Source: Bacteroidales bacterium (lineage in GTDB: Bacteria > Bacteroidota > Bacteroidia > Bacteroidales > FEN-979). From it: a stretch of DNA of 44,500 nt. How positions within the stretch are numbered: position 1 is the stretch's first letter; each line of letters opens with the position of its first letter. The DNA is taken from assembly GCA_016783905.1 (NCBI GenBank), contig JADHVQ010000009.1, forward strand, positions 1 to 44,500, read 5' to 3'. The notes beneath the pieces are model-generated. The model was not told the DNA's origin. It was given only the letters and a program-made list of their open reading frames with translations, and did no database searches. A program made the position numbers and the translations under genes. Below, piece after piece: positions 2,361 through 42,981 of this stretch.

Positions 2361-2395
2361 TTCGCAGTTCGCAGTTCGCCTTTCGCTTTTCGCTG
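2361..2395. repeat. Degenerate heptamer tandem tract A
   Basis: TTCGCAG TTCGCAG TTCGCCT TTCGCTT TTCGCTG; five units sharing TTCGC with exact 7-bp spacing, between the two M1 peptidase genes. Confidence 0.85.
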
Positions 2396-14495: not shown

Positions 14496-14505
14496 CTATC
14501 ACGGA

Positions 14506-14547
14506 GATGCCGGATGCCGGCTCCTTGATGCTAGATGTTGGATAACA
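14506..14547. repeat. Degenerate heptamer tandem tract B
   Basis: GATGCCG GATGCCG GCTCCTT GATGCTA GATGTTG GATAACA in strict 7-bp register, just after the DUF1015 stop. Confidence 0.75.
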
Positions 14548-14575
14548 GGGTCAGGTTAATCAAGCCGTTTTTTCT

Positions 14576-35714: not shown

Positions 35715-37064
35715 TTATTTCGCTCTTTTTCCAGGCTTCTTCGCGGTCTCTGATTTCGTTGATGTTGCTGCCTTTGAAGCTTTTGCTTTCGTAGCCGGTT
35801 CTCCCTTTTTAGCAGATACCTTTGTTGTCGTGGGGGAAGCTGCTTTTGTTTTAGGAGCCTTTTTTATTTTGGGGGCAATCTCCTCTGCTTCCACTCGAAT
35901 GATGAAATCGGAGAGCACATTCATGTAGTTAATGAATGCCTCGTAGGGAGATGGATAAGGGTTGAAATATTTATGAACTTCCCCGTCGGAGAACCATTTG
36001 GTACACATATAATAGAAATGATCGCTGGTTTGGAGGCGTTCCCAGTCGCGTAATACATCTGGTTTGTTGCAGCGCATCACCTCTTTCTCAATGCCGTATA
36101 GTTTTCCGAATGCTTCATCCTGGAGTTCGTTTCCCAGCCAGGCGGTCAGATCCTTCTCCTCGTCGGCCCATGAGATGGGGTATAATACGTTAACAGGGGC
36201 AACAGGCTGGAGCTGTTCACTTACCTCCCTGGGAGTGGAGAAGCGAAAAGGAGAATGAGACAAAACTGTCTTGGGCAGATTATAAAAAAACTCAAAAATG
36301 CCAGTCTCTTTCCACTGTTGCTCCCCCAATGTCTCATAATTAAGAAAGAGGTTTATCACCTCCTCATTCTTGGGAACTTTATTCATCCATCCAACGAACT
36401 TCTCCGTGGTAACAGGCCACTCAGACCATGCACGGTTAGAGAAACGGAAAATGATATCATCGCTCAGCCTGAAATTACGCAGCAACAGTTTCAATTTCGT
36501 ATTAACAGCGCTATAATAGAGAAAGTTAGGACTCTTCCATCCTAAGATATGCTTGGCCCCTTCGGTAAGGAGGGTGGTAAATCCCTGATCGGCTACGGCA
36601 AGACCGATGTCGTCGTTGAAGATTAGCTCGGTGTTGCGGAACGTAGTTGGGTTCTGGTTAAATAGATCCTTGATACGGTCGCGGTGTTTGGTAACCTGCC
36701 TGATAAATTCATCTTTGTTCCCCAGAGAAGCCAGGGAGTGGGAATAGGTTTCACCCGTAAACTCTACACAGCCTGTTGCCGCCAGTTCCTGAAATCCATG
36801 AATCACCTCCGGTGCATGTTGCATGAGTTGTTCCAGGGCGGGGCCGGATATGCTGTAGGTAACTTTGAAGGCAGTTCCAAATTCCCTGATCAAGTCAAGC
36901 ATCATTTTGTTGGCCGGGAGATAGGACCTCTCAGCAACCCGTCCGATGATGTGCCGGTTCTGGTAATCATCATAATACTGGTGATCCTGACCAATATTAA
37001 AAAACCTGTAGGTACGTAACCGGTAAGGCTGATGAACCTGGAAACAAAGATTAATGAATTTCAT
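35715..37064 (-). CDS. Glycoside hydrolase family 57 protein with basic Lys/Ala/Thr-rich C-terminal tail
   Basis: INLCFQVHQPYRLRTYRFF N-terminus, YSISGPALEQL, FTGETYSHSLASL, EWPVTTEKFVGWM; tail KIKKAPKTKAASPTTTKVSAKKGEPATKAKASKAATSTKSETAKKPGKRAK. Confidence 0.9.
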   Translation of the reverse strand: MKFINLCFQVHQPYRLRTYRFFNIGQDHQYYDDYQNRHIIGRVAERSYLPANKMMLDLIREFGTAFKVTYSISGPALEQLMQHAPEVIHGFQELAATGCVEFTGETYSHSLASLGNKDEFIRQVTKHRDRIKDLFNQNPTTFRNTELIFNDDIGLAVADQGFTTLLTEGAKHILGWKSPNFLYYSAVNTKLKLLLRNFRLSDDIIFRFSNRAWSEWPVTTEKFVGWMNKVPKNEEVINLFLNYETLGEQQWKETGIFEFFYNLPKTVLSHSPFRFSTPREVSEQLQPVAPVNVLYPISWADEEKDLTAWLGNELQDEAFGKLYGIEKEVMRCNKPDVLRDWERLQTSDHFYYMCTKWFSDGEVHKYFNPYPSPYEAFINYMNVLSDFIIRVEAEEIAPKIKKAPKTKAASPTTTKVSAKKGEPATKAKASKAATSTKSETAKKPGKRAK

Positions 37065-38341
37065 AATACTGTTTTATATACTTCCTGCACGTTGAAAGCC
37101 GCATTCTCCCACTTCAGGTTATCCACCTCCTCTTTCCCATACCTGACAAACATTTGTTGCAACCCTTGGTAATGAAGGATCCCATAGATGGCATCGGCCA
37201 TGGCATCAATATCCCAGAAATCAACTTTGACCGCGTGTTGCAACACCTCGGACACCCCAGACTGCTTAGAAATAACTACAGGGACATTGGATCGCATGGC
37301 CTCGAGAGGTGAGATCCCGAATGGCTCTGATACGGAAGGCATGACATAGACATCGCTCATGGCAAACATGGTATCCACTTCAGTGCCTGCCAAAAATCCG
37401 GTAAAGTGAAATTTGGTCCCCATTTTCAGCTTGGCAATCCGGCGAACCATCCTGTTAAGAAGGTCTCCGGATCCGGCCATGACAAAGCGTACGTTCTGGT
37501 CTCTTTTCAATACTTTGTGGGCAGCCTCTACGAAATAATCCGGGCCCTTCTGGTAGGTCACCCTCCCCAGGAAGGTGACCACTTTCTCTTTCACATGTTT
37601 TTGGATACCCGTTAACTCAGGGCGGCCAGAGGGTTCCACTGCGTTATAGACTGTAAAGACTTTAGCGGCATCGATCCCATATTTTTCTACGACGATCTGC
37701 CGTGTCAGATTGCTGACAGTGATGACCCGGTCAGCCTCCTCCATCCCTTTTCTCTCAATCTCAAAAACAGATGGATTTACGTGCTCGCCAGAGCGATCAA
37801 ATTCTGTTGCATGAACATGAATCACCAGGGGTTTCCCACTGATGTACTTTGCCGCTATCCCGGCCGGATATGTTAACCAATCGTGTGCATGAATCAGGTC
37901 GTAGCTCTCCTGGCTGGCGATGGAAGAGGCAATCAAGGCGTACCGGGAAACCTCCTGCATCAGGTTTTTACCATATTTACCTGAAAAGGTGAAATTCTTT
38001 GAAAAAACCGATTTACTCTGTTCCAGCTTCTGATGTTCCTTTGTCTCAATCAGCTCCTCAAACTCCTCCTCCCCCACGTATGGGATCAGGTTTGAGCCAA
38101 TCTCCATGTATTTGATCTTGTTCCAGAACTCCTGGTGTTCACTCTCCATAAAGTCCATGGTCACATCACTGGCGTTAAGGAGCCGAAATCCATGATGAGA
38201 TTCATCTCCAAAGGCTTTCGGCACGACGAAGATGACTTCGGCCCCCAGTTTAACCAGTCCCTTGATCAATCCGAAACAAGCGGTTCCCAACCCACCTGTG
38301 ATGTGGGGAGGAAACTCCCAGCCGAACATTAAAACACGCAT
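37061..38341 (-). CDS. Glycosyltransferase family 4, glycogen synthase-like
   Basis: MRVLMFGWEFPPHITGGLGTACFGL, HAHDWLTYPAGIAAK, TFLGRVTYQKGPDYFVEAA, MPSVSEPFGISPLEAM. Start set to 38341; the ORF-track extension is a repeat tract. Confidence 0.93.
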   Translation of the reverse strand: MRVLMFGWEFPPHITGGLGTACFGLIKGLVKLGAEVIFVVPKAFGDESHHGFRLLNASDVTMDFMESEHQEFWNKIKYMEIGSNLIPYVGEEEFEELIETKEHQKLEQSKSVFSKNFTFSGKYGKNLMQEVSRYALIASSIASQESYDLIHAHDWLTYPAGIAAKYISGKPLVIHVHATEFDRSGEHVNPSVFEIERKGMEEADRVITVSNLTRQIVVEKYGIDAAKVFTVYNAVEPSGRPELTGIQKHVKEKVVTFLGRVTYQKGPDYFVEAAHKVLKRDQNVRFVMAGSGDLLNRMVRRIAKLKMGTKFHFTGFLAGTEVDTMFAMSDVYVMPSVSEPFGISPLEAMRSNVPVVISKQSGVSEVLQHAVKVDFWDIDAMADAIYGILHYQGLQQMFVRYGKEEVDNLKWENAAFNVQEVYKTVL

Positions 38342-38417
38342 TTCAATTTTCGATTTACGATTTACGATTTTCAAATGACGATTAACTTTATTCCTCATTC
38401 CTCCTTCCTCATTCACT
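38341..38417. repeat. Degenerate heptamer tandem tract C (11 consecutive heptamers)
   Basis: TTTCAAT TTTCGAT TTACGAT TTACGAT TTTCAAA TGACGAT TAACTTT ATTCCTC ATTCCTC CTTCCTC ATTCACT; position 4 is C in all 11 units. Confidence 0.85.
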
Positions 38418-40365
38418 ACTCCCTCTCATATTCCTGAATCAGTTGATGGACCCTTAGGATTTCCGCAACCGACCAGGCTTGGGAGATCGCACCCCTTGGC
38501 GTATACGGCGGGTCCCCGTCATAAATCTCAGAGATAGTCCCTACCCCATGTTCCGTCATCGTTTGGCTAAACTCATCGTAGTATCCTTTGATAAAGGAGA
38601 GTCCGCTTTCCCCATGTATTCTTAGATAGCCTTCTGCAAAATGGCCGAATAACCAGGGCCAGACAGTTCCCTGGTGATAGGCAAGGTCGCGTTGGGTTTG
38701 ATCACCGAAGTAGATTCCCTTGTAGGCTGCACTTACCGGTGTCAGGCTCCTTAACCCTCGGGGCGTCAGCAACTCCTGCTTGATCTTACTGAGTACCTGC
38801 TTCCGTATCTCTTCATTCACCGGGCTATAAGGCAGTGAGGTGGCAAACACCATGTTGGGACGTACCGACCAATCCTGATAATCTCCGTCGATGTAGTCGG
38901 CCAGGTAACCCTTCTCTTCATTCCAGAAGGTTTGCAGGAAGGAGTTCGGAATCATCTCTGCAATGTCAGACCACCGGGCTACAAACTTCGAATCGCCTGC
39001 CTTTTCTGCCAGCTCCATGCTGAACCTGATCGCATTGTACCACAATGCATTGACCTCAATAACCAGCCCAATCCTGGGAGTGACCGGTTTCCCATAGACG
39101 AACGCATCCATCCAGGTGAGCGCTTTACCGGGGACTCCTGCATAAATCAACCCGTCAGGCTCCATATGAATATTGAAGGCGGTGCCTGCCCGGTACCCCT
39201 CCAGGATCTGTTTCATGCTGCGACCATAGTCTTTCCAAACCTCCTGGTATCCACCGGTTTTAATGGCATACTGCTGAAGCGTCCAGAAAAACCACAATGG
39301 GGTATCCACACTGTTATATTCGGATTCTTTCCCGGATCCGTTATTGGGGAAGAGTGGTCCGTCGAGCTCTTTCAGCATCGTGTCAATTACAGCTTTACAT
39401 GTTTTCGTTTCCCCGTTGGTCAGGGTGAGTCCGGGCAACGACACAAACGTATCCCGCCCCCATCGTCCGAACCAGGGGAAGCCGGCTATGACTTCGGTAT
39501 TCGACCCACGTTTGACGATAAACTGTTGTGCTGCATTGATCAGGCAATTCTCGAAACTGCTCCTGGGGATCCTTCGTTTGCGTTCTGTGGTAAAAAGCCG
39601 TTTGATGCTAAGCGGGGAAATTACCGAGGTGCCTGCAGAAAAACAGACGGACTCTCCCGGTTTGATATCAAATTCAAAAAAGCCGGGAACCAGAAGATCC
39701 TCAAAATATTCGTACCCTCGCTCCATCTCCTCCTGGTATTCGATGTTATAATACCAATCAGGAGCATGGGTGTACTCATTCTGTTTGGAGATCTGCATGA
39801 AAAGATCGGTATAGCCATGATATAACTTCATGCGGATACCTCCATCAACTTTTTCGTATTTCTTATCGGCAAAAATATTTTCCTTACTTAAATGATGTAC
39901 ATTCCGGAAAGCCAGAAATGGACGCAGTCTTATCCTGGTGGGTGAATTGGCCTCTTCAAGTATATAGCGTATGATGATCCTGTCTTCATGGGAGATGAAG
40001 AGCATCTCTTTGGAGAGGATGGCCCCTCCCACCCGGTAGAGCAGCCGGGGAACCTCCATAGCTGAGAAATCACGGACATATTTATGCCCCTTGGGATTAT
40101 AGGCCCCCCCCTTGTATTTATGAATCCCCAGGTTGAACTCGGCATCTTGCTGGATGAGAGTCTCGTCGAGAGAAGAGAGCAGTACATGGTTTTCATGATC
40201 AACTCCCGGTTGCGGGGTGACCAGCATACCATGATATTTCCTTGTGTTGCAGTTAATGATGGTAGAACTGGCATAGGATCCTCCCCGGTTGGACCGGAGC
40301 ATCTCCCGGCGAAGAGAATATTCCAGGTTGACCAGTTGGTTTTTATCGAAATTGATATAACTCAT
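38416..40365 (-). CDS. Glycogen debranching enzyme, amylo-alpha-1,6-glucosidase (GH133-like)
   Basis: GSYASSTIINCNTRKYHGMLV N-terminus; AGFPWFGRWGRDTFVSLPGL; NSVDTPLWFFW; YHQGTVWPWLFGHFAEGYLR. Confidence 0.95.
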   Translation of the reverse strand: MSYINFDKNQLVNLEYSLRREMLRSNRGGSYASSTIINCNTRKYHGMLVTPQPGVDHENHVLLSSLDETLIQQDAEFNLGIHKYKGGAYNPKGHKYVRDFSAMEVPRLLYRVGGAILSKEMLFISHEDRIIIRYILEEANSPTRIRLRPFLAFRNVHHLSKENIFADKKYEKVDGGIRMKLYHGYTDLFMQISKQNEYTHAPDWYYNIEYQEEMERGYEYFEDLLVPGFFEFDIKPGESVCFSAGTSVISPLSIKRLFTTERKRRIPRSSFENCLINAAQQFIVKRGSNTEVIAGFPWFGRWGRDTFVSLPGLTLTNGETKTCKAVIDTMLKELDGPLFPNNGSGKESEYNSVDTPLWFFWTLQQYAIKTGGYQEVWKDYGRSMKQILEGYRAGTAFNIHMEPDGLIYAGVPGKALTWMDAFVYGKPVTPRIGLVIEVNALWYNAIRFSMELAEKAGDSKFVARWSDIAEMIPNSFLQTFWNEEKGYLADYIDGDYQDWSVRPNMVFATSLPYSPVNEEIRKQVLSKIKQELLTPRGLRSLTPVSAAYKGIYFGDQTQRDLAYHQGTVWPWLFGHFAEGYLRIHGESGLSFIKGYYDEFSQTMTEHGVGTISEIYDGDPPYTPRGAISQAWSVAEILRVHQLIQEYERE

Positions 40366-42748: not shown

Positions 42749-42754
42749 GTTGAA

Positions 42755-42808
42755 GTACGAAGTACGATTTACGATTTACGAATGAAAGTTAGAAGTTAGA
42801 AGTACGAA
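42755..42808. repeat. Degenerate heptamer tandem tract D
   Basis: GTACGAA GTACGAT TTACGAT TTACGAA, then TGAAA (5-nt interruption), then GTTAGAA GTTAGAA GTACGAA. Confidence 0.82.
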
Positions 42809-42943: not shown

Positions 42944-42971
42944 ATTCGTCATTCATAATTCGTAATTAGTA
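42944..42971. repeat. Short degenerate heptamer tract E
   Basis: ATTCGTC ATTCATA ATTCGTA ATTAGTA in 7-bp register; last unit runs into the mnmE -7 element TACTTTTG. Confidence 0.65.
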
Positions 42972-42981
42972 CTTTTGTCCT

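Follow-up and report, generated by a model that had tools for sequence, protein, structure and literature searches.

Locus and sequence features

The window analysed here is the whole stretch of 44,500 nucleotides at positions 1 to 44,500 of contig JADHVQ010000009.1 (forward strand), from a Bacteroidales bacterium of the GTDB lineage Bacteroidota, Bacteroidia, Bacteroidales, FEN-979 (assembly GCA_016783905.1). The source genome (G000) comprises 2.47 Mb in 128 contigs, and its closest relatives are Bacteroidales MAGs; the window is mostly collinear with contig C147 of the congener G003, at about 73–79% DNA identity. Two genes on the reverse strand, encoding a glycogen debranching enzyme and a GT4-type glycosyltransferase, are separated by a short spacer that consists almost entirely of 7-bp units, and similar arrays are found in other parts of the window (Table 1).

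Table 1. Genes and heptad arrays in the window (positions are those of the window)
Positions	Strand	Feature	Domains
37061..38341	-	GT4-type glycosyltransferase (P0002), downstream gene	Glycos_transf_1, Glyco_transf_4
38416..40365	-	Glycogen debranching enzyme (P0001), upstream gene	GDE_C, GDE_N
38342..38415	-	74-bp spacer from debranching-enzyme stop TAG to GT4 ATG, almost entirely heptads	
38341..38372	-	Start-proximal heptad array, sense unit AATCGTA (TTACGAT on + strand)	
38373..38389	-	Degenerate junction TGACGAT TAACTTT, weak lag-7 signal	
38390..38414	-	Stop-proximal heptad array, sense unit GAATGAG (ATTCCTC on + strand)	
2361..2394	.	Heptad array TTCGCAG/TTTCGCT	
14506..14543	.	Short heptad array GATGCCG	
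42752..42808	.	Two heptad arrays, GAAGTAC/GATTTAC and AAGTTAG, in divergent spacer	
42944..42974	.	Heptad array ATTCGTN, in the divergent spacer that also holds the 42752..42808 arrays	

The eleven consecutive heptamers listed in a preliminary description of this DNA match positions 38341–38417 letter for letter. These 77 bp had been taken as intergenic, which is correct for nearly all of them; the spacer proper is slightly shorter, as the first base of the tract is part of the glycosyltransferase ATG and the last two are part of the debranching enzyme TAG. Of the 70 positions compared at lag 7, 48 match in the tract (z = 6.9), as against 21.9 ± 3.8 in dinucleotide-preserving shuffles. In 20,000 such shuffles, this score is not attained at any lag from 2 to 30. 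Identity is 0.69 at lag 7 and declines over its multiples (lag 14, 0.57; lag 21, 0.54; lag 28, 0.47); it does not exceed 0.38 at any other lag. The invariant C at position 4 of the units, to which attention had also been drawn, is true as a count, and a column invariant over 11 units appeared in only 2 of the 20,000 shuffles, but the ATTCCTC unit has C at three of its seven positions.

The tract is a genuine 7-base tandem repeat between two genes of sugar metabolism. The probability that it represents a chance pattern in AT-rich intergenic DNA is negligible, given the outcome of the 20,000 shuffles and the absence of period-7 and period-8 arrays from shuffled samples of the source genome; no supporting point for such a reading was found. 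Hardly more credible is a coding role, in which the glycosyltransferase would begin at the GTG at 38416 and gain 25 N-terminal codons from the array. No stop codon interrupts the frame between 38416 and 37061, as this would require, but heptads free of stop codons are inherently open in all frames, the conserved protein begins at the ATG at 38341, and the spacer of relatives varies in both length and sequence.

For annotation, the segment 37061–38416 holds a practical warning: naive ORF calling lengthens the glycosyltransferase by 25 codons by way of the GTG and the stop-free heptads, and stop-free heptad arrays lead to false N-terminal extensions in gene calls.

Two abutting arrays

According to the preliminary description, the consensus of a single tract switches along its length while one register continues unbroken. 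Instead, the tract is made up of two abutting arrays that have no common phase. Unit agreement is 0.74 and 0.71 within the two halves. When left units are compared with right ones at rotations 0, 1 and 2, mean identity is 0.38, 0.39 and 0.42; since these rotations fit about equally well, the claimed common register across the switch carries no information.

Read on the gene strand, units of the GAATGAG type follow the stop codon and units of the AATCGTA type precede the start codon. Several congeners and other family members carry the start-side AATCGTA array at the corresponding place. The stop-side part is GAATGAG-like in G002, in which the corresponding tract (L009) has, as judged by eye, lost one base of the period; it consists of the 8-bp unit CGTGAATA in G003 and of similar units in G001, while G005 and other genera have different ones there. 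Comparison with these relatives explains the switch: in congeners the start-side array is often kept, and the stop-side part, sometimes of period 8, is not the same in most of them. A general excess of abutting arrays was considered as well and dropped for lack of significance: 5 of 28 pairs of neighbours lie within 7 bp, where 13% is expected.

Genome-wide period spectrum and location

Arrays in the source genome were identified with an array finder, combined with a codon-usage gene caller (a simple script). Lag autocorrelation pooled over spacers defined as the complement of ORFs gave too dilute a signal, as arrays are hidden within long spurious ORFs. In a first sample of 415 kb, period 7 accounted for 59 arrays and period 8 for 14, and no other period for more than 7; its shuffles gave a single period-6 hit. 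The contigs of this sample were picked partly for TTACGAT hits, so that period 7 is overstated relative to period 8. The second sample, 245 kb from other contigs, held 17 arrays with 7-bp units and 13 with 8-bp units, no more than 3 for any other unit length, and none in the shuffles.

According to the codon-usage gene calls, intergenic sequence makes up 9% of this DNA and holds 51 of the 65 period-7 arrays and 13 of the 14 period-8 arrays. Units of 7 or 8 bp dominate the intergenic arrays and those of 5 and 6 bp are nearly missing, the counts for periods 5, 6, 7 and 8 being 1, 1, 51 and 13. The earlier suggestion of a tighter constraint on unit length than on unit sequence is borne out across the genome, where periods 7 and 8 dominate and the units drift, but the constraint is not absolute: 8-bp arrays are common, and TRF finds indels in about a quarter of the period-7 arrays (17 of 72). 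In arrays of at least 49 bp, the identity between units at distances 1 to 6 is 0.79, 0.69, 0.62, 0.55, 0.50 and 0.49, a steady decay that is expected if units are copied from their neighbours and then mutate.

Divergent spacers of the source genome are depleted in arrays, with 10 in 10.7 kb versus 47 in 19.1 kb of tandem spacers, and arrays are also present in convergent spacers and beside stop codons. No purine or GC strand bias of the arrays was found in tandem spacers, and a claim of strand-specific function was dropped after this skew test.

Turnover between congeners

The congeners compared share about 73–85% DNA identity, a distance too great for aligning most arrays; two orthologous arrays were found to have the same length and others to be replaced. 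The array at 2361–2394 is missing from the orthologous spacer of G003. The arrays at 42752–42808 are of equal length in G003, and in one of them a pair of adjacent units shows the same single-base difference from the congener, which is what unit-wise homogenisation would produce. The spacer at L125:16584 contains CGTATTT (7 bp) in the source genome, about ten units of CGTGTTT (7 bp) in G003 and CATCTCAC (8 bp) in G004. Replacement of arrays between congeners is quick, although a few stay in register.

Other kinds of repeat were also encountered at orthologous sites. The region of G003 orthologous to positions 14496–14575 of the window (L139, 9625–9800) holds a long 9-bp array (CTGACTAAC) where the source genome has a short heptad array. 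The orthologues of L119:15000–15045 in three congeners (L214, L215 and L216) contain inverted repeats of the GGGGCGGGTTTGGAACCCGCCCC type, as opposed to an 8-bp array in the source genome.

Unit repertoire

A limited repertoire of units is common to unlinked loci and to different genera beyond chance. Within the source genome, 30 pairs of unlinked arrays have the same unit, compared with a mean of 3.0 (maximum 12) for random intergenic heptamers; when TTACGAW, that is TTACGA(A/T), is left out, the values are 14 and 2.1 (maximum 8). Between the source genome and other genera there are 27 same-unit pairs against 3.2, or 11 against 2.5 without TTACGAW, and none of 1000 random draws attains the observed count in any of the four comparisons. 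The family set of arrays includes loci that overlap; duplicates, as judged by array and flank, were taken out, and several arrays within one spacer may count separately.

The source genome contains 67 TTACGAWTTACGAW sites versus none for the reversed pattern. All 25 genomes of the family contain TTACGAW doublets, 3 to 256 in each. Within the order, few sister families have them, and in the rest of the phylum their occurrence is sporadic (81 in G040 and 27 in G139, for instance).

On contig C50, a GACGAAGG/GACGAGG array is present at both L119:474–506 and L119:4070–4105, within a segmental duplication that has shared flanks. Copying of this long array in trans within C50 was considered and dropped, as the flanks are duplicated too.

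Relation to known heptamer repeats

No paper on such repeats in this Bacteroidales family was found in the literature searched. The short tandemly repeated heptamers (STRR) of cyanobacteria were reportedly described by Mazel and colleagues in 1990. These elements are, like the arrays reported here, dispersed short tandem heptads between genes, but they form defined unit families and have a cyanobacterial host. Heptanucleotides of Calothrix are mentioned as a citation in PMC4692102.

Intergenic heptamer repeats are known in bacteria (PMC4679880, PMC4692102). Among the long simple sequence repeats (LSSR) of Mrazek, Guo and Shah (2007), as these are cited in PMC4679880 and PMC4692102, 7-bp units form the commonest class, which is intergenic and patchily distributed between taxa. 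The tract and the other arrays of the source genome resemble this class in being 7-bp tandem units beyond chance, located mainly outside genes. Unlike LSSR, they are degenerate and drifting, units of 8 bp are nearly as common in one sample, and the repertoire of units is family-wide.

TAACTGA direct repeats have been reported from marine Beggiatoaceae, some Cyanobacteria and five Bacteroidetes (MacGregor 2015, PMC4679880). The arrays described here share with them the intergenic position, the heptad unit, the frequent proximity to start codons, the sporadic occurrence across phyla and the absence from the spacers of some relatives. TAACTGA repeats have one dominant motif with rare near-variants, whereas many related motifs coexist here and there is no general strand bias. 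Like the TAACTGA repeats, the tract lies immediately before a start codon and in a single orientation; genome-wide, the arrays show no strand bias. The TAACTGA unit itself does not occur at the tract, where the units are AATCGTA and GAATGAG, and TAACTGC-like arrays are present elsewhere. One example is L204, the G004 orthologue of L133:8152, in which one spacer holds GTTAGCA arrays (TAACTGC on the opposite strand) together with CTGCCCA arrays; in sequence, these resemble the published TAACTGA repeats.

The GGGNATC and GGGGA(C/T)T repeats of Xanthomonas and Nostoc, which are perfect or heterogeneous and have 2–26 units (Rehm et al. 2015, PMC4692102), are likewise intergenic heptads, and their long arrays are found at different genes in two species. 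In contrast to these G-rich, quadruplex-forming repeats, the tract has no GGG run on either strand. The preliminary description could name no Bacteroidota family of heptads, and our search found none either, but heptamer repeats are already recorded in the five Bacteroidetes genomes (PMC4679880). The tract thus belongs, as a Bacteroidales member, to a known kind of intergenic heptanucleotide repeat, represented here by degenerate, drifting arrays of mixed 7- and 8-bp units.

Origin and maintenance of the arrays

The tract represents two neighbouring degenerate 7-bp arrays of a genome- and family-wide intergenic class with units of 7 or 8 bp, which we consider probably generated by whole-unit slippage together with point mutation and probably lacking a sequence-specific function at this locus. 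The preference for periods 7 and 8, the drift of the units, their turnover and the missing strand bias are observed and agree with slippage of this kind in DNA under weak constraint; the slippage itself, the reason for the 7–8-nt preference and neutrality are inferred. Arrays would lengthen, shorten and be replaced through whole-unit slippage during DNA synthesis, with misalignment preferentially by 7–8 nt and loops too long for efficient repair by MutS. Ordinary point mutation alongside slippage would let the unit sequence walk and the unit length stay, and arrays would survive where spacer sequence matters little, that is, after stop codons and away from promoters. Mrazek et al. (2007), cited in PMC4679880, put forward a preference for heptads and slippage tied to a polymerase contact length of 7 nt, and mismatch repair is efficient on loops of 1–3 bp, falling with loop length (PMC4060949). 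Loss of mutS1 as the cause of the arrays is unsupported: the gene was found in the source genome and in nearly all relatives, so that no loss of mismatch repair is needed.

Plain local slippage leaves the sharing of units among unlinked arrays unexplained, for which sequence preference, descent and exchange between arrays are all possible candidates. Exchange as the general process, although unlikely, would mean that arrays are seeded or rewritten from other arrays by ectopic template switching, gene conversion or a dedicated templated process, and that 7- and 8-bp units from a limited repertoire circulate among hundreds of arrays of the family, with the machinery setting their length and inter-array exchange their sequence. 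Such a process is suggested by the units common to unlinked loci and genera above both nulls, by the tendency of one and the same position to vary in many TTACGAA/TTACGAT arrays, and by the occupation of the same spacers and the same orthologous sites by unrelated arrays. However, a sequence preference of slippage or shared descent could equally yield a common repertoire, and the sole long shared array inspected was the segmental duplication on C50, flanks included. No reverse transcriptase domain was found in five array-bearing genomes (G000, G003, G012, G016 and G018), so a route templated by reverse transcription is not general.

A further point against the slippage reading is that the AATCGTA array before the GT4 gene keeps its orientation across several genera, which may be due to descent or to function. 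Function would here mean arrays of binding sites, for a protein or for translation control, as has been suggested for the Beggiatoaceae TAACTGA repeats upstream of start codons, which were proposed as regulator sites (PMC4679880). Besides the start-proximal AATCGTA units kept in sense orientation in several genera, the AATCGTA doublets in sampled tandem spacers (12 sense, 6 antisense) are in line with such a role. It is nevertheless improbable, more so than exchange between arrays: there is no overall strand or purine bias, arrays also occupy convergent spacers and positions beside stop codons, the units are diverse and are swapped between congeners at orthologous sites, and no Rfam match or terminator call was found at the tract.

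The family constitutes an unusually rich natural record of the birth and drift of short tandem arrays in bacteria, with a sharp preference for step sizes of 7 and 8, gradual walks and fast orthologous replacement, and the old proposal that 7 nt is the contact length of the polymerase becomes testable in it; a second question that it raises is why unlinked arrays have units in common. Pairs of heptad arrays in inverted orientation were also observed close together at G139:C18:45373-45435, G139:C41:45154-45214 and G016:C77:15876-15942 and in the L021 spacer, where stem-loops are possible in principle.
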